From an uncultured Armatimonadota bacterium (GTDB lineage: Bacteria > Armatimonadota > Fimbriimonadia > Fimbriimonadales > Fimbriimonadaceae): a stretch of 64,000 nucleotides of DNA. The notes beneath the pieces are model-generated. The model was not told where the DNA came from and did no database searches. It saw only the letters and a list, made by a program, of their open reading frames with translations. Positions 30,236 through 39,576 of this stretch are shown one piece after another. A program made the translations under genes and the position numbers. How positions within the stretch are numbered: the first letter of the stretch is position 1; each line of letters starts with the position of its first letter. The DNA lies in contig CAIYMO010000053.1 in the NCBI GenBank assembly GCA_903927345.1, forward strand, positions 186,001 to 250,000. The letters are read 5' to 3'.

Positions 30236-31300
30236 TTAGATTTGTCCCGTCACAAAGACCGACAAAGGAGTAGGTTCAAATTCAAATCGGGGCAAGTCGA
30301 CTGCGCCGAAATTGAGGCTGACAAGCGGCTTGATAATCTGCTCGTTGACAACAGTATCCGCCAAATCTCGACGGATCGCCTCCAACTGAAGAAGGAACAC
30401 TTGCAGGTGTACTCTGCCCATCGCTAGCGACCCCACACGTCCGCCTTCGCTGGTCGTCAGAGTTTGTCCCACAATCGCTCGGGCGATTTCTCGGTTATGG
30501 AACTCGATCGCATCCATGAACCCCTGACTCGCAGAGTTTCGATCTCCAAGTGGAGTCACGTCAAAGTCGTCTGGGAAGACAATCGCCGAGTTCTTCGCAA
30601 GCGCCTCCAAGGACCGGAGCATCGCAACTTGGTCCTCGTTGGTGGCGCCCTTGCCGAACTTTGCGAGCAACGTGGGCGAGGCAAACTTTTCAAGATGCTG
30701 TCGCCAGGCATCCATCAGCCGCTTCTTCTCACGGAAATGCGGCACGGCGGCATCAAGGTCACTGGCTCCGTAAGGTCGCCCATAGCCGCCCCGATGGCGA
30801 TAAATCACGAATTGATCCAGCGGAAAGGTGCGCTCGTCCTCCCCGGGCAACGTGAGCTTCAGCCCCTTCGGCGTCTCATATTCGTCAATTTCCAGGGCGA
30901 ACAAACGTGGATCTTTTGGCTTGATCGAGTCAATCCACCAGCGCCCAGAATCCGCACGGAAGCTAATCTCCTGTACGCTCCAGCCGTGAACGAAGGCGTC
31001 CATCGCATTCTGAAGCACTGTGTAAATCGAGCCTTGCATGCGTGAAAACGCCTCCCGAACGAACGTCGTCACTTCATCCGGCCCGGTCAAGTTCCAGCCA
31101 GAAGCGAGAACACCCAAGGACTTGATCGTAAGCGCGGTCTGGATCATCGAGTCCTTTGTCATCTCGACATAAAGATCAGACAGCTGAGGACGAGGGAGAG
31201 CCATTCCATTGCTCTGAAGTTGCCAAGGGGGCACAGTCGGGGTGGGAGAAGAATTTGGCTGAGAAGGTTTTAGGGGCTTCTTCTTGTTAAACAGTTTCAT
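30236..31300 (-). CDS. Phage portal protein (DUF935/Mu gp29-like)
   Basis: Portal of tailed phages: the ring through which DNA is packaged. 354 residues. Typical portal features are SDLYVEMTKDSMIQTALTIK, DAFVHGWSVQEISF (~105-118), PFHREKK-like AVPHFREKKRLMDAWRQHLE and IVGQTLTTSEGGRVGSLAMG, the last being characteristic of the Mu-like DUF935 group. It is shorter than full-length members (often 450 or more), lacking part of the C-terminus. It lies 22 bp after the terminase gene. No head, tail, protease or integrase gene follows. Confidence 0.82.
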   Translation of the reverse strand: MKLFNKKKPLKPSQPNSSPTPTVPPWQLQSNGMALPRPQLSDLYVEMTKDSMIQTALTIKSLGVLASGWNLTGPDEVTTFVREAFSRMQGSIYTVLQNAMDAFVHGWSVQEISFRADSGRWWIDSIKPKDPRLFALEIDEYETPKGLKLTLPGEDERTFPLDQFVIYRHRGGYGRPYGASDLDAAVPHFREKKRLMDAWRQHLEKFASPTLLAKFGKGATNEDQVAMLRSLEALAKNSAIVFPDDFDVTPLGDRNSASQGFMDAIEFHNREIARAIVGQTLTTSEGGRVGSLAMGRVHLQVFLLQLEAIRRDLADTVVNEQIIKPLVSLNFGAVDLPRFEFEPTPLSVFVTGQI

Positions 31301-31322
31301 TGGTTCTTAGTGTTGGAAGTGG

Positions 31323-32585
31323 TCATCGCGGGTTGGTCGCGAGAATCATACGGTTGGCTTGCGGCAGGTCGCTGACCGCCATGGCAAGCGCCAGCACGAG
31401 ATCGTCATGTCCGCTCTTAGCCGCCATTTGAACGTGCCCACTGGGTGAGCGGGTTGCCTGGAAACTTTCGAGCTCCTTGATCAGGGCTTCGTACTGGGGA
31501 ATCTGCAGCGCTCTCGCCTCAAAGGCTCGAACGAGACCGTCAATCAGTCTCGGTTTGGACTCTGATGTGATGACACAGGGTCGGATCGAAACTCCTGCCA
31601 GTTGCTGCCGCAACCAAGCGGTGATTCCATCTCCAACGCCGGTGGTGTCGCAAATGATCCGTGCGCCAGGGTGTCGAGCAAGAATGGCTTTGACCCATTC
31701 GATTTGTTGGGACCACTCCACCCGATGTTTCCGGTCGATTTCGAGCACGCTTGCCTGACGCTGAAATCCGCGGATCACGACCAAAGCAGAGTAGTCCTCA
31801 TATCTGGCCCAGTCGATACCTATGATCGTCGGACCAGGGATCTCAGCGTTTGGTTCAGCAAGGATAGACTCCTGAACCGCTCTCCGGTCAAACACGTATC
31901 CTTCGCGTTGCACAAACTGAGCTTCATACTCTGTCGCAAAAGCACTCGGACTCAGAAGCTTTCGCTGGCGCTCAAGAAAAGCAGCCCGAACCTGGGGGTT
32001 GTCCGAGCTTGGCGCTTGGAGTGACCAGAATTCGTCCGTGTTCTGCAGACCCTCCTGAAAGGCTTCGTAAAAGTGGTTGTGTCCATTCGGGGTGCTGATC
32101 ATCGTTAGAGTTCCGTCAAAGGTCGCCATCATTGGCGCAAGAACCTCATGAACAATATCGGCCTTGACGTACGCCGCTTCGTCAACAATGATGTGGCTCG
32201 CTTCATCGCCGCGCAGGTGATTCCCCGAATGAGCCGAGCGAGCCACAACAGAGTGCGGGCCCACGTTCAGTTCCATCTTCGACTCCTTGATCTTTGGGTC
32301 AGCTTCAAACCGGAGCCCCCAAAGGTCAAGGCTGATGAGCTGCTCGATCAGCCGCCGAAGACGGCGGAAGAGGAAGCCCGCCTGTTCGATCGTCGGAGCG
32401 ACCAAAAGCGTCCGACCTTCTGAAGCGGAGTCAAAGCCACTCAGAACTTGAACTGCGCATGCGTCCGTCTTTCCCCAACGACGCCCACACGCCAGCACTC
32501 GCGTTTTGGCTTGAGCGAGAAGAAAACGTAGCTGCCCAGGATGTGGTCGCCAAACCGGCGCGAGCCACGTCAAAAAGTCTTGCAT
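31323..32585 (-). CDS. Phage terminase large subunit
   Basis: DNA-packaging motor and nuclease. 420 residues. The ATPase domain has Walker A CGRRWGKTDA (~33-42), Walker B HIIVDEAAYVKAD and the coupling motif MISTPNGHNHF. The RNase H-like nuclease domain shows acidic residues in GIDWARYEDYSALVV, CDTTGVGDGI and SGHDDLVLALAMA. All catalytic residues I can identify are intact, so the gene is not obviously decayed. No small terminase is visible upstream; AraC-family genes follow instead. Confidence 0.88.
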   Translation of the reverse strand: MQDFLTWLAPVWRPHPGQLRFLLAQAKTRVLACGRRWGKTDACAVQVLSGFDSASEGRTLLVAPTIEQAGFLFRRLRRLIEQLISLDLWGLRFEADPKIKESKMELNVGPHSVVARSAHSGNHLRGDEASHIIVDEAAYVKADIVHEVLAPMMATFDGTLTMISTPNGHNHFYEAFQEGLQNTDEFWSLQAPSSDNPQVRAAFLERQRKLLSPSAFATEYEAQFVQREGYVFDRRAVQESILAEPNAEIPGPTIIGIDWARYEDYSALVVIRGFQRQASVLEIDRKHRVEWSQQIEWVKAILARHPGARIICDTTGVGDGITAWLRQQLAGVSIRPCVITSESKPRLIDGLVRAFEARALQIPQYEALIKELESFQATRSPSGHVQMAAKSGHDDLVLALAMAVSDLPQANRMILATNPR

Positions 32586-32662: not shown

Positions 32663-33556
32663 TCAGGCAAGTTTAAATCCGACTTGAGATTTAAGGACTT
32701 GTTTAATTTCACCAAGCGTTAACCCTAGTTCATTTCGGAATAGCGTATTCGCTTCGGAGATAGACTCAATCCCCGCACGCTTAATACTTTGCTCGATAGT
32801 AGCGTTCTTATCACACAGATACTGCATTGCTACCGTAGCTCGTGTCTGGCGAACAAATTCGGCAAATCCTATGCCTTCCTTAACACGAAATGTTCTGGAG
32901 AAATGGTGAACGGAGTATCCGCAAAAACTTGCGGCATCTGATGTACTCCATGGACTCTCTGGGTTCGCGACTACAGCTTTGCGCAATTTATCAAAGTGCT
33001 TCGTAGCTGGCAACTGCGATCCGCAGTTGCCAGACTCATGACAAGTCCGTTCTACCAGCCCAGTGAAGAGGGCTGCAAATTTGAAGTAGGACTGAGGCCT
33101 TGAAGGATCCGAAATGGCACTAATCGCATCCGCCAGCGGATCATTCTCTAAGTCTAGCGAAGTAGTCGGCGGCAACTCGGAACGTAGCAATTCCTTGATT
33201 GGCTGTTCTGGCCAGAGCGACCGATGGCAGGTGAGAAACATCGTCGTGCAAGCCCCTCTTCCAAAAATCGTGCTGTAATCCCCCGGCGGATAAATCACGA
33301 CTCTCCCGGGACGTACAAGCGAACTCGCTTGGACATCGCTTACCTGAAGAATGGAGTTCCCCTGAAGCCTGACACTGAGAACAAGCTCATCGTCTGGAAC
33401 AAAGAATCGGAAGATGTGTGGCGAGGGATTAACGCTCTCGCTTAGGTATCCGCCGATCGCTGGATAATCTGAAGGAGCCAAACGTCTGACATGAACGTTC
33501 TCTTGGACCATCTGCGATAGCTGCTCCAAATTCCGAATCAAGTCAACGGATGTCAT
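32663..33556 (-). CDS. AraC-family transcriptional regulator, paralogue 1
   Basis: 297 residues from the ATG at 33556; a TTG two codons earlier is the longest-frame start. The N-terminal ~170 residues are a sensor-like region with RPGRVVIYPPGDYSTIFGRG. The C-terminal ~100 residues form a double helix-turn-helix, with ASFCGYSVHHFSRTFRVKEG (first recognition helix region) and SISEANTLFRNELGLTLGEI (second). The other three tandem genes share the YSVxHFSRTF signature and this layout. No regulated structural gene is adjacent. A 9-bp inverted repeat lies just upstream. Confidence 0.82.
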   Translation of the reverse strand: MTSVDLIRNLEQLSQMVQENVHVRRLAPSDYPAIGGYLSESVNPSPHIFRFFVPDDELVLSVRLQGNSILQVSDVQASSLVRPGRVVIYPPGDYSTIFGRGACTTMFLTCHRSLWPEQPIKELLRSELPPTTSLDLENDPLADAISAISDPSRPQSYFKFAALFTGLVERTCHESGNCGSQLPATKHFDKLRKAVVANPESPWSTSDAASFCGYSVHHFSRTFRVKEGIGFAEFVRQTRATVAMQYLCDKNATIEQSIKRAGIESISEANTLFRNELGLTLGEIKQVLKSQVGFKLA

Positions 33557-33578
33557 TTCCAAGCGACCCTCTTTATGA

Positions 33579-33613
33579 CTTTATCACCATCACTGTCCAG
33601 CAGCGTGATAAAG
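33579..33613 (-). promoter_or_regulatory. Inverted repeat upstream of AraC paralogue 1
   Basis: CTTTATCAC (33579-33587) and GTGATAAAG (33605-33613) are perfect inverted 9-mers separated by 17 bases. The left arm lies 23 bp upstream of the paralogue 1 start. Size and position suit an operator for a dimeric regulator, possibly autoregulation. A leader hairpin is the alternative. Confidence 0.5.
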
Positions 33614-33748
33614 CTTCCACAGAGTCATCCAAAACCACAACGCGGAGTAACCTGCGACTAGATTTTGAACCTGATTCCCAAGGAAACCAATACAGTCCCA
33701 ATCTTTCGGCGATGGTACAAAGTACCCAGCAATTCTGGAAACCAAGCG

Positions 33749-34660
33749 CTAGCCCGAAACAACGGCCTTGCGATAAATCTTAACCGATAAGACTCTTTCG
33801 ATATCTGCAAAGGAGAAGCCGATTTCCCTTATCAACGTTCGATTGGCAGACACTCGGTCTCCAAAGCCAACTTGATCAATTGCCATCGTTGACGTCAAGC
33901 CTTTGTCGCACATCAGCATGACCGCCTGTGTACAGCGCACACGCGCCACATACTCATTGAACCCAATGCCATGCTTCTGTCGGAACGTTCGAGAGAAGTG
34001 ATACACGGAATACCCACTCCGCTCTGCAGCCCCGGCCGTTGTCCAGTCTTCCGCTGGCTTGACCATAACATCGTAGCAAAGACCTGCGAACTGGGACTCC
34101 TGAGTGGGCAAACCATAATAAGCCTTGGTCTGGATAGAATCAGGTCTCAACTGATCGAGAAGTTCGAACAAGACAGCTGCGAGTGCGAAATAAGAACCTA
34201 CAAATCCACCATTTGTAGTGTCATGGATGAAATTCGCAATTTGGGGACTTTCAAGGTTCACATGTGAGCGGCAGAATTGGCCATTCAACGTCTCTTGCCA
34301 AACACTCAAACTTGGGGAAAGAGACTTATCCGCAATAAGGAACAGAGTCTCGCACTCACCTCTTCCAAAGATTGTTGAGTAGACACCCTCGCCAAGCAAG
34401 TAGACCGAGCCTTCTCGAATAAGGTGGCTGCTACCTAATCGATGACTTTGGATGATTGAGCATCCTTTGACGCGCAAGCCGACAACCGTGGTCCCCGCCT
34501 CCACCTTAAACTGTGCATTCACCGGAGTCTTGTGGTGTCTAAGGCTACGGAACGCTCTAATCCCATCAAAGCCCGACGGGACCAAAGGAATGACCTCGAC
34601 ACCCTGGTCGGCCCATCCCAAATTCTGATCCAAACTTGATACTAAATCGACTGTCCGCAC
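33749..34660 (-). CDS. AraC-family transcriptional regulator, paralogue 2
   Basis: 303 residues from a GTG start, preceded by AGGGAG. It has the same architecture as its neighbours: a sensor-like N-terminal region with SVYLLGEGVYSTIFGRGECE, then HTH helices in ERSGYSVYHFSRTFRQKHG and the second in RVSANRTLIREIGFSFADIE. It is clearly diverged from paralogues 1, 3 and 4. The intergenic regions on both sides are AT-rich. Ligand and targets unknown. Confidence 0.82.
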   Translation of the reverse strand: MRTVDLVSSLDQNLGWADQGVEVIPLVPSGFDGIRAFRSLRHHKTPVNAQFKVEAGTTVVGLRVKGCSIIQSHRLGSSHLIREGSVYLLGEGVYSTIFGRGECETLFLIADKSLSPSLSVWQETLNGQFCRSHVNLESPQIANFIHDTTNGGFVGSYFALAAVLFELLDQLRPDSIQTKAYYGLPTQESQFAGLCYDVMVKPAEDWTTAGAAERSGYSVYHFSRTFRQKHGIGFNEYVARVRCTQAVMLMCDKGLTSTMAIDQVGFGDRVSANRTLIREIGFSFADIERVLSVKIYRKAVVSG

Positions 34661-34689
34661 TGCTCTCCCTCGCCCCCCGAACGAATAAC

Positions 34690-34699
34690 TGATATATCA
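34690..34699 (-). promoter_or_regulatory. TGATATATCA palindrome upstream of AraC paralogue 2
   Basis: A perfect 10-base palindrome 30 bp upstream of the GTG start. A near copy, TGATATATTC, lies at 34751-34760, about six helical turns away. Two similar sites at such spacing are compatible with an operator pair, but the region is AT-rich and the sites are short. Confidence 0.35.
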
Positions 34700-34850
34700 A
34701 GTAATTATATGCGTGCGGATTCGGAGTTTCGATCCAATATCAATTAAGAGTGATATATTCGACAATATGTGTCCTCTGTCAGAAGTTGCTGGGCATTTTT
34801 ACCCACAGATCAACATCCCAATAATTCACTCATTGGACAGTTGCTAGCAA

Positions 34851-35753
34851 TTAGCGGACGTGATGAATTTCTTTAGACTGAGAGAATCTTCGAACATCAG
34901 CCACGCTGAAACCGAGTTCCCTTTGGAAGGTCTTATTCGCCGAAACAGCACAGCCAACTCCCACCATTTGGAACGCCGACTCCATAGGAACGTGATCTCT
35001 GCAGATGAGGTTAACTGCCTTTTTTGCACGAATCATGCCCACGAATTCATGGAACCCATGACCCGTCTTGGCCCGAAATGTTCGCGAGAAATGATAAACC
35101 GAAAATGCACATTGCTGTGCGGCAAGAGCGGTTGTCCAAGCCTCGTCAGGCCGATTAATCACATTTGCGCACAGTCCCTCAAAAGTCGGGTCTGTTAGCG
35201 AGACCCCGTATTCCAACAGCAGATCCTTGTGTGGTTCGGTTATCTGATCAAAGATATCCGCCATGAGTGCGCTGTACTTGAAAAAGGACTGCTTCTCGGT
35301 TGATCCCAGAATGGCTTCCACCTTTCGCATCTTCGAATCCGATTCCAGATCGATCTGAGCACACGGAAGTTCACCGCATGTCTCTCGAAACATGTATTCC
35401 AAGCCGGAGACCGCGCTCCGGTTCGCGATCAAGAAAACCGTTTTCGATGGTTGCTTGGCAAAGAGAGCTGAGTACCGTCCGCCCGTCAAAATGTAGACAC
35501 TTCCTGCAGTTAGAAGCTGAGTAGATTTCCAGCGATGAGAGTGGATGAGAGTGTTTCCGCGTAGCCTGACACCAACAAGAACTTGATCCTTTGGGACGTC
35601 AAAGTTGAACAGTTTCGGTTGCAAGTTCTTCCTCTCACTAACCACCGCCGAAATTGTCTCAACGTCGTGAGGCAAGTATTCAGCAAGTTCAATTTCTTGC
35701 TGGAGTGGTCTCCCCGTTGAGAACACGCTCCGAATAACTTCTAATCCAATCAT
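34851..35753 (-). CDS. AraC-family transcriptional regulator, paralogue 3
   Basis: 300 residues, ATG start eight bases after an AGGA. The sensor region contains SVYILTGGRYSALFAKQPSK. The HTH region contains QQCAFSVYHFSRTFRAKTG and AVSANKTFQRELGFSVADVR. More than half of its residues match paralogue 4 by eye along the whole length, and the upstream ~100 bp is also shared, so the two arose by duplication of gene plus promoter. No neighbouring target gene. Confidence 0.84.
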   Translation of the reverse strand: MIGLEVIRSVFSTGRPLQQEIELAEYLPHDVETISAVVSERKNLQPKLFNFDVPKDQVLVGVRLRGNTLIHSHRWKSTQLLTAGSVYILTGGRYSALFAKQPSKTVFLIANRSAVSGLEYMFRETCGELPCAQIDLESDSKMRKVEAILGSTEKQSFFKYSALMADIFDQITEPHKDLLLEYGVSLTDPTFEGLCANVINRPDEAWTTALAAQQCAFSVYHFSRTFRAKTGHGFHEFVGMIRAKKAVNLICRDHVPMESAFQMVGVGCAVSANKTFQRELGFSVADVRRFSQSKEIHHVR

Positions 35754-35763
35754 GTACGCATTC

Positions 35764-35854
35764 CTGCCAGCCTACGCTGCCTGGCAAACAGCTAGTGATA
35801 TTGTAGGTTGATCATCGGCGGAATACTGTAGGAAACTAGCGAAAGTTAGCACAA
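35764..35854 (-). repeat. Upstream region shared by AraC paralogues 3 and 4 (copy A)
   Basis: Contains TGCCAG-N10-CTGGCA (35765-35786), the palindromic 9-mer TGCCTGGCA (35778-35786), TATTGTAGGT (35799-35808; ACCTACAATA on the minus strand, a -10-like TACAAT) and TTAGCACAA (35846-35854). All recur in the same order with identical 12- and 37-base spacings upstream of paralogue 4. The inverted repeat is a good candidate operator or leader hairpin. Confidence 0.65.
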
Positions 35855-36003
35855 AAAGCGTACGCAACCGCATTTCGGGGATGCGAAAACGGCGCGCACC
35901 GACGCCACAAGACCCAATACATCACTGCATCCAAAGCCTTTTGGGTGGCAAGCACTACTGTTTTGCTTCGCGTCTTAGGCAAAATTCTCCACCTAAGGCT
36001 AAG

Positions 36004-36939
36004 TCAAAATCCCACCAACGATGCTTTGTCTTGCATAACATTGACGTGTTGCATCATCCGAGCCTGATTAAATCGCTGAATGTCCGCAACGCTGAATCCC
36101 AACTCCCGCTGTAGGGATTTATTCGCGGAAAATCCACCGTAAATTCCAACTTTATCGAATGCGATTTGCGCAGGAACACTACCCTCACAGATCATTTTTA
36201 CAGCCTGGATCGCGCGAACCAAGTTCACAAACTCAGGGAACCCTTGCCCTGTCTTCGCCTTAAAAGTCCGGGAGAAGTGGTACACGGAATAGGAGCATTG
36301 TTGTGCACCAAGCGCTGTGGTCCACTCTCTCTCAGGGTGGCTCACGACGTGGGCACACAGTTGCCGAGTAAGAGGGTCATCCGAAGCGACTCCATATTCA
36401 AGTAGGCCATCTTGTGCAGGATTGGTGATTTGGTCAAATACATCAGAAATGATCGCGTTGAATTTGAAGATTGACTTTCTTTGGGTCGGTTCCAAAATTG
36501 CCTGAACCCTCCGCATCTTGGGGTCAGACTCAAGATCGATCTGGGTGTGAGGAATGCTGCCACTCGTCTCACGAAACATCGCGTCAAATCCTGGGATACT
36601 CGCCCGGTTTGCAACAAGAAAGACTGTTTTTGATGGCCGCTTCGCAAACAAAGCCGAATATCGCCCACCGGTCATAAGATAAACACTTCCCGAGGTCAGC
36701 AATCGCGCGGAGTCGCTTCGGTGCGAGTACAACAGCGTGTTACCCTCGATCCTAAGACCGACAAGCACCTGATCTTTGGGAACTTCAAAGCTGATCAGCT
36801 TCGGTTGCAAGTTCTGACGACTACAGGAAACCGCCGAAATTGTCCCAAAGTTCCTTGGCATGTATTCAGCAAGATCGATCTCTTGCTGGAAGGATCTCTC
36901 CGTTGAGACCAAACCCAGAATCGTTTCTAATCCAATCAT
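36004..36939 (-). CDS. AraC-family transcriptional regulator, paralogue 4
   Basis: 311 residues. The frame opens at 36957, but the ATG at 36939 gives MIGLETI, aligned with paralogue 3 (MIGLEVI), and sits eight bases after GGGAG; the upstream six residues are therefore excluded. The sensor region contains SVYLMTGGRYSALFAKRPSK. The HTH region contains QQCSYSVYHFSRTFKAKTG and GFSANKSLQRELGFSVADIQ. It is the most upstream gene of the four-gene array, each member having its own intergenic region of about 180-250 bp. Confidence 0.84.
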   Translation of the reverse strand: MIGLETILGLVSTERSFQQEIDLAEYMPRNFGTISAVSCSRQNLQPKLISFEVPKDQVLVGLRIEGNTLLYSHRSDSARLLTSGSVYLMTGGRYSALFAKRPSKTVFLVANRASIPGFDAMFRETSGSIPHTQIDLESDPKMRRVQAILEPTQRKSIFKFNAIISDVFDQITNPAQDGLLEYGVASDDPLTRQLCAHVVSHPEREWTTALGAQQCSYSVYHFSRTFKAKTGQGFPEFVNLVRAIQAVKMICEGSVPAQIAFDKVGIYGGFSANKSLQRELGFSVADIQRFNQARMMQHVNVMQDKASLVGF

Positions 36940-36951
36940 GTGAGTACTCCC

Positions 36952-37041
36952 TGCCAAGCGACTTTGCCTGGCAACCAGTTAAGGCTATTGTAGGTCGTTT
37001 ACTCGTGGAAATCCGTAGTTTGTGGGGCAAAATTAGCACAA
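36952..37041 (-). repeat. Upstream region shared by AraC paralogues 3 and 4 (copy B)
   Basis: TGCCA (36952-36956) pairs with TGGCA (36969-36973). The 9-mer TGCCTGGCA lies at 36965-36973, TATTGTAGGT at 36986-36995 and TTAGCACAA at 37033-37041. Gaps between the last three blocks equal those of copy A (12 and 37 bases), so no indels separate them. The stretch probably includes promoter and operator. Confidence 0.65.
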
Positions 37042-37085: not shown

Positions 37086-38417
<1,332 letters not shown>

Positions 38418-38480
38418 TCACCACGCCTTTGTGGGTCGGGCAATAGATTACCGTTTTGCTCGTGCTAGACTTGCAGGAAG

Positions 38481-39182
38481 ATGCTTTGGATGTGCCTTCT
38501 GAGCATAGTCGGCCTTTGTGCAGGCATAGGGGTCGCACTGACCGTGCGGAACGTGAAGAAAAATGCACATGACACCTGGGTGAAGTTCTCGACCGCAGGT
38601 TGGATTTTTATTCCGCTAGGCCTGTTCGCCATTGTCTTGATAGCTCCGTCTTCAGACGGGGTGGTCGCCGCAACGTTCATGGCATCTGTGCTTGTGGGCC
38701 TTCTTGTGTTCGCACTCGCTAGCATGATTCTGGGCGGAGTCCTGGGCGTCATTGAGCGACGGCCAACTTTTTTAACGTCGCGGCTTCTCTTAGTCGACTA
38801 TCTCTTTCTACTTGGCGCTTCAATATTGATTTCCAAGTTCCTGATGACTCCACTACATCAGTACGATTTGCGCCAGGATAGCCAAGCCATGCAGGAACGG
38901 CAAATGCAGATTGCTGAAGCGCGCCGGCAGATTCCAGAACCATTTCAGGGAATAACCCCTGATGAGATGCGGCGTGGTCAAGGATTTTCACCTAGCATCA
39001 TCCACCAGGCAGAAGAAGTGCGCGCAATGAGCCAGAAGCTCTTCGAAGATCAGCGAGCCGTCTATGGACGCGACACAGCCCGACGTAAAGCGGTCAACTA
39101 CTCAATGCTTTTTGGCTGGATCATCGGCAGTATCAGCTTGGCACTCCGGGCTCGTCGGTCGGCATCGTACTCGCCAACCTAG
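38481..39182 (+). CDS. Hypothetical membrane protein
   Basis: 233 residues. About four hydrophobic segments occupy the first ~125 residues (for example IVGLCAGIGVALTV, GLFAIVLIAPSS, LLVFALASMILGGVLGVI and FLLGASILISKF). A hydrophilic, Gln/Arg-rich helical region (~130-205) and a last short hydrophobic stretch near the C-terminus follow. No family recognised. Its end overlaps the convergent haemoglobin gene by 50 bp. Confidence 0.68.
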   Translation: MLWMCLLSIVGLCAGIGVALTVRNVKKNAHDTWVKFSTAGWIFIPLGLFAIVLIAPSSDGVVAATFMASVLVGLLVFALASMILGGVLGVIERRPTFLTSRLLLVDYLFLLGASILISKFLMTPLHQYDLRQDSQAMQERQMQIAEARRQIPEPFQGITPDEMRRGQGFSPSIIHQAEEVRAMSQKLFEDQRAVYGRDTARRKAVNYSMLFGWIIGSISLALRARRSASYSPT

Positions 39183-39576
39183 CTCCCATGTTCCGAGCGA
39201 GCAACATAAAGTGCTCGACCACGACTTCGTTTGGCGCCGTGTCGCGAAGAGTCTGCTCAAACAGTTCAAGCCACTGTGGAACCATCCACGACCGGGCTTG
39301 CTCGACTCCAGCGTGGACCTCCATCAGCTTGCCCTGGTAGCCGGCACTTCGCAATGCGACCCCCTCCCAGAATTTTTTCATCTTGGCGAGATGCGGAGGC
39401 CAGTCTTTGATTTTGGAAGCGAAGATGGGTCCGAGAACCGCGTGATACTGAATGCGATCGTAAAACGTGTCGACGAGCAGGCTGATGTACTCCTCGCTGA
39501 CGCCAATTTCCCGGCTGGATCGCTGAAGCTCGGCACGCTTCTTCAGCACTAGTTCGGAGGCGAGTTCGACGCGCAT
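39133..39576 (-). CDS. Group III truncated haemoglobin
   Basis: 147 residues of the 2/2 globin fold. YISLLVDTFYDRIQYHAVLG with PIFASKI covers helices B-E, and FWEGVALRSAGYQGKLMEVH contains the E-F region and the proximal histidine, as in group III (Ctb-like) globins. WLELFEQTLRD is the G helix. Such proteins bind O2 or NO and are usually linked to nitrosative or microaerobic physiology; no regulator for that is adjacent. The C-terminal ~17 residues overlap the opposite gene. Confidence 0.85.
   Translation of the reverse strand: MRVELASELVLKKRAELQRSSREIGVSEEYISLLVDTFYDRIQYHAVLGPIFASKIKDWPPHLAKMKKFWEGVALRSAGYQGKLMEVHAGVEQARSWMVPQWLELFEQTLRDTAPNEVVVEHFMLLARNMGARLASTMPTDEPGVPS

Follow-up and report, generated by a model that had tools for sequence, protein, structure and literature searches.

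A four-gene array of AraC-family regulators beside argG in a Fimbriimonas genome and its probable kinship with asd-linked regulators

Four tandem paralogues downstream of argG

The window analysed here is a stretch of 64,000 nucleotides (C53:186001-250000) from a 286-kb contig in the 3.1-Mb genome of a member of Fimbriimonas (Armatimonadota). On its minus strand, positions 32663-36939 hold four intact AraC/XylS-family paralogues, arranged head to tail as four complete ORFs and coding for proteins of about 297-311 aa. Along this strand, argG is succeeded by copies 4, 3, 2 and 1 in turn, and then by terL and portal. The argininosuccinate synthase gene argG (37086-38405, assigned with Pfam) is the immediate upstream neighbour of copy 4 (36004-36939), which is followed by copy 3 (34851-35753), copy 2 (33749-34660, with a GTG start) and copy 1 (32663-33556, with an ATG start at 33556 and alternative starts at 33559 and 33562). 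The array is far from the ends of the contig and therefore is not an assembly-edge artefact.

All four proteins matched AraC-type helix-turn-helix (HTH) Pfam models, with best E values of 3.6e-9 (copy 1, HTH_18, 37.2 bits), 5.1e-9 (copy 2, HTH_18), 1.5e-7 (copy 3, HTH_18) and 4.6e-5 (copy 4, HTH_AraC), and all-against-all blastp among them gave E values of 1e-143 to 1e-42, far beyond chance; the four tandem AraC paralogues of the original prediction are hence real. Copies 3 and 4, a recent duplicate pair, are 61% identical at the protein level and all other pairs 27-33%, with copy 1 the most diverged in the alignment. Among the sequence patterns said to be common to all four, G-x-Y-S-x-x-F and S-V-x-H-F-S-R-T-F are invariant, but copy 1 lacks the 'SVY' expected before the first motif and copy 3 has F in place of the Y before SV. 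Similarly, the upstream regions of 180-250 bp attributed to each gene were found for copy 3 (250 bp), copy 2 (190 bp) and copy 1 (about 190 bp), but not for copy 4 (146 bp). GC3 in the four genes is 0.49-0.54, below nearly all large neighbours (0.53-0.70), and is also low in the single AraC genes of two relatives described below, G017 and G019 (0.50 and 0.56). The genome codes for nine HTH_18 proteins, four of them in the array, and copy 4 used as query against its own genome matched the four array members only, so that the genome-wide census proposed earlier finds no further member of this subfamily.

Sensor and DNA-binding domains

The C-terminal double-HTH domain (PF12833/PF00165) was matched by all four copies, with scores above the HTH_18 cut-off for copies 1 and 2, just above that of HTH_AraC for copy 3 and below both cut-offs for copy 4; scores this close to or under the cut-offs may reflect weakened DNA binding. 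Searched by sequence, the N-terminal sensor region had no match among solved structures or in Pfam. An AlphaFold2 model of copy 4 (pLDDT 84, pTM 0.84) placed residues 5-174 in a cupin barrel with helices, matching CuxR (Z 12.1), BgaR (11.3), AraC (10.6) and also ExsA, and residues 185-306 in an AraC-type DNA-binding domain, matching AraT (Z 10.2) and AdpA (Z 10.1). Superposition of the whole chain on two-domain structures, among them ToxT and Rns, was poor (rmsd about 15 Å), which a different orientation of the two domains to each other would explain. The array proteins are thus predicted to resemble AraC, CuxR, BgaR and ExsA in having an AraC-type cupin with dimerisation helices followed by the AraC DNA-binding domain, whereas their sensor is less than 15% identical to those of these proteins and belongs to no Pfam family.

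The two HTH motifs have fared differently. In the clade formed by the array and its argG-linked relatives, mean pairwise identity was 29% for the sensor, 56% for HTH1 and 32% for HTH2, compared to 22%, 56% and 51%, respectively, in the asd-linked clade introduced below; the drift of HTH2 (32% versus 51%) is therefore specific to the argG-linked branch. The asd-linked proteins, with their well-conserved HTH2, score 58-65 bits with HTH_18, as opposed to 24-37 bits for the argG-linked array copies. For Rob, a single HTH can be enough to hold DNA tightly (PMC8279559), and the conserved HTH1 beside a drifting HTH2 may be a parallel case, although Rob and MarA lack an N-terminal cupin sensor and are not close relatives of the array.

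Linkage to argG and kinship with asd-linked regulators

A close homologue alignable over most of the protein length was found in only two others of the 85 genomes of the family, G017, a relative of the same genus, and G019, with one copy each, and a sensor-only profile matched 3 of 291 genomes of the phylum, namely these two and the present one. In a scan of genome contigs G017 held the only full-length relative, the remaining matches being from Paenibacillus and confined to the HTH. In both G017 and G019 the single AraC gene shares the strand of argG and follows it immediately downstream, after a gap of 117-143 bp. In G019, a block comprising argG, araC and a gene of the type found here at 39133-39576 is inverted relative to its neighbours, with the argG-araC junction kept. 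The argG loci fetched from other congeners had no such AraC gene. The linkage to argG, like that to asd described below, is positional evidence, counted for argG in three species. The statement in the original prediction that the array has no target genes is not supported: argG, on the same strand, was overlooked there, yet stands directly upstream in all three species, and the closest relatives outside them are divergent from asd in 18 of 20 sampled loci.

The idea that the array replaces a lost ArgR was dropped, because 17 of 20 congeners have no ArgR and its absence therefore says little. Most congeners have neither ArgR nor an argG-linked AraC; argG can thus do without a regulator of this kind, a point against the regulatory reading given below.

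The neighbourhood of argG is itself particular to this clade. Between argG and the 39133-39576 gene, a 233-aa reading frame with no Pfam match occupies 38481-39182 on the plus strand, while in G017 argG and the corresponding gene are about 40 bp apart. Just upstream of argG (38406-38600), a hairpin-like element, CCACAAAG(A/G)CGTGG, is common to this genome and G017.

The nearest relatives elsewhere in Fimbriimonadaceae are AraC genes divergent from asd (identified with Pfam) in 18 of 20 sampled loci, a proportion that is no population frequency, the loci having been chosen among search hits rather than randomly. The asd-linked loci are L172-L176, L178-L183 and L185-L191, together with L201-L204, L207 and L208, examples being the AraC genes at L181:7713-8630 and L172:8499-9416. 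Gaps between asd and the AraC gene range from an overlap of the called starts up to about 260 bp, and several loci have trpB as the following gene; in one other genus (g32), AraC genes flank asd on both sides, next to trpB. These proteins share with the array a homologous cupin sensor and double HTH, and their genes likewise adjoin an amino-acid biosynthesis gene; they differ in being usually single and divergent from asd, whereas the array is tandem and follows argG.

In a tree of 52 AraC proteins, the six argG-linked proteins grouped together (support 100/100), and this group joined the asd-linked clade as its sister (100/96). Comparison of sensor profiles linked the argG-linked and asd-linked groups at a probability of 91% (E 1e-6); the controls, six further AraC groups taken from these genomes, scored at most 3.3%. 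A chimeric origin, in which the sensor would have been exchanged for one foreign to the asd-linked family, was rejected by this comparison. In the three species with the argG-type gene, asd is present without an AraC neighbour, and the AraC genes follow argG instead; an asd-linked AraC used as query in these species had the argG-linked genes as best matches, via the DNA-binding half. From the tree and the sensor profiles we infer that the array is a relocated, duplicated and fast-evolving branch of the asd-linked regulator, the simplest history being that the gene first moved away from asd to a site beside argG and was then duplicated. The literature searched gave no description of the Fimbriimonadaceae asd-linked AraC regulator, and none of AraC regulators of Fimbriimonas.

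Divergence of the copies and their possible roles

Copies 3 and 4 are sisters in the tree (100/99) and group with the G017 and G019 genes, with copies 1 and 2 branching off outside this group; an alternative topology that unites the four copies was not rejected (AU p 0.10). The array may hence be a late expansion in this lineage, or an old one of which the relatives have lost two copies. The view of an expanding and diversifying family is supported by one copy in each of the two relatives versus four here, by the recent duplication behind copies 3 and 4 and by the low identities between species. Between species, the argG-linked AraC proteins are just 27-40% identical (36-40% for copies 3 and 4), compared to 68-96% for neighbouring genes, among them argG (93-95%), the two genes adjacent (91-94%), an oxidoreductase (75-80%) and terL (72-75%), and to 67-90% for four further AraC orthologues in these genomes. 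At a comparable asd identity (0.81-0.84), asd-linked AraC pairs were 62-76% identical versus 38-40% for the argG-linked ones, with two asd-linked pairs available. For copies 3 and 4, dN was 0.29 and dS about 2.65, giving a dN/dS of about 0.11, an approximate value because dS is nearly saturated; these two copies are under purifying selection.

Copies 3 and 4 also share a promoter-proximal leader that includes a 25-nt element carrying TGCCA/TGGCA as inverted arms (35763-35787 and 36950-36974, respectively, both on the minus strand). It occurs nowhere else in the window and may be an operator or a relic of the duplication. Apart from this pair, the upstream regions of the six argG-linked AraC genes were no more alike than shuffled sequences, and the mutual regulation raised in the original prediction is conjectural. 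No DNA motif common to the upstream regions of argG, asd and the AraC genes was found, and the asd-AraC intergenic regions contained promoter-like words without a clear regulator site. A scan for consensus promoters and terminators gave no more hits than in shuffles. The palindrome TTGCCTGGCAA, tried as a genome-wide marker, was dropped because with one mismatch it is common in the genome.

We consider it rather probable that the array consists of tandem duplicates of one-component AraC/XylS regulators of amino-acid biosynthesis, drawn from the asd-linked stock and relocated to argG. Each protein combines an N-terminal cupin for ligand sensing and dimerisation with a C-terminal double HTH, and the array descends from the same stock as the Fimbriimonadaceae AraC divergent from asd; in one Fimbriimonas clade the gene is no longer beside asd and lies, fast-evolving, directly downstream of argG. 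A small metabolite related to amino acids would bind in the cupin pocket, and the regulator would switch genes of amino-acid biosynthesis, with argG as a nearby candidate and others in trans, and perhaps also its own gene. The common HTH1 would confer recognition of related half-sites, while divergence of the sensors, HTH2 motifs and promoters would make inputs and targets differ from copy to copy. The sensor of Pseudomonas aeruginosa ArgR (PA0893) is of another type than that of the array, and this protein is a functional analogy only. As an AraC-family regulator of arginine biosynthesis and catabolism in Pseudomonas, it sets a precedent for such control (PMC8151288). These genomes offer a small natural series (one gene at asd, one at argG, four at argG) in which to test how a bacterial transcription factor relocates, duplicates and rewires its targets, and they draw attention to an asd-linked AraC regulator that is widely conserved in Fimbriimonadaceae.

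Less probable, but the strongest of the alternatives, is that the linkage to argG is a hitch-hiking accident of local rearrangement and that the regulators have unrelated, distant targets and roles outside amino-acid metabolism. The clade-particular surroundings of argG would suit this, as would the occurrence of the linkage in three species only, the fast divergence of sensor and HTH2 and the lack of a common operator among the sequences searched; against it, the adjacency of argG and araC has outlasted the inversion in G019, and the sister clade likewise adjoins an amino-acid gene.

More tentatively still, the array could be an actively diversifying, metabolite-responsive set in which a conserved HTH1 acts on a common operator core while tandem duplication quickly changes the sensors and HTH2, the family having first changed amino-acid pathway, from asd to argG, and then expanded.

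That the copies are redundant leftovers heading for loss under relaxed constraint, with their fast divergence being decay and not innovation, seems to us improbable. HTH2 does degenerate, with HTH_18 scores far below those of the asd-linked clade, and the upstream regions show no detectable similarity except in copies 3 and 4; however, the four frames are intact with invariant positions in both sensor and HTH1, the low dN/dS of copies 3 and 4 speaks against decay, and single copies have been retained in two other species. The idea that these are dead counterparts of regulators located beside operons elsewhere stands in part: a parent-type regulator does adjoin a biosynthetic gene elsewhere, but at least copies 3 and 4 look functional here.

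Control of the adjacent phage genes or of other mobile elements, which the original prediction had raised and which a terL start just 77 bp downstream of copy 1 might suggest, is very improbable, since the terL/portal pair of G017 and G019 lies about 9 kb and 17 kb, respectively, from the AraC gene, so that the closeness in this window is not a conserved pairing, since this AraC is absent from five other congeners in which terL is well matched, and since no relative of the array was found in viral contigs. A viral origin of the array was rejected on this last ground. The phage-derived pair itself (30236-32585), a Mu-type portal gene and a terminase large subunit gene between accD and the array, is possibly a domesticated or remnant module. 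Relatives of the pair occur in G017 and G019, which carry second terL copies as well, at 59-60%, and in the five other congeners, at 42-49%; their flanks differ, and the surroundings examined contain no other obvious phage genes.
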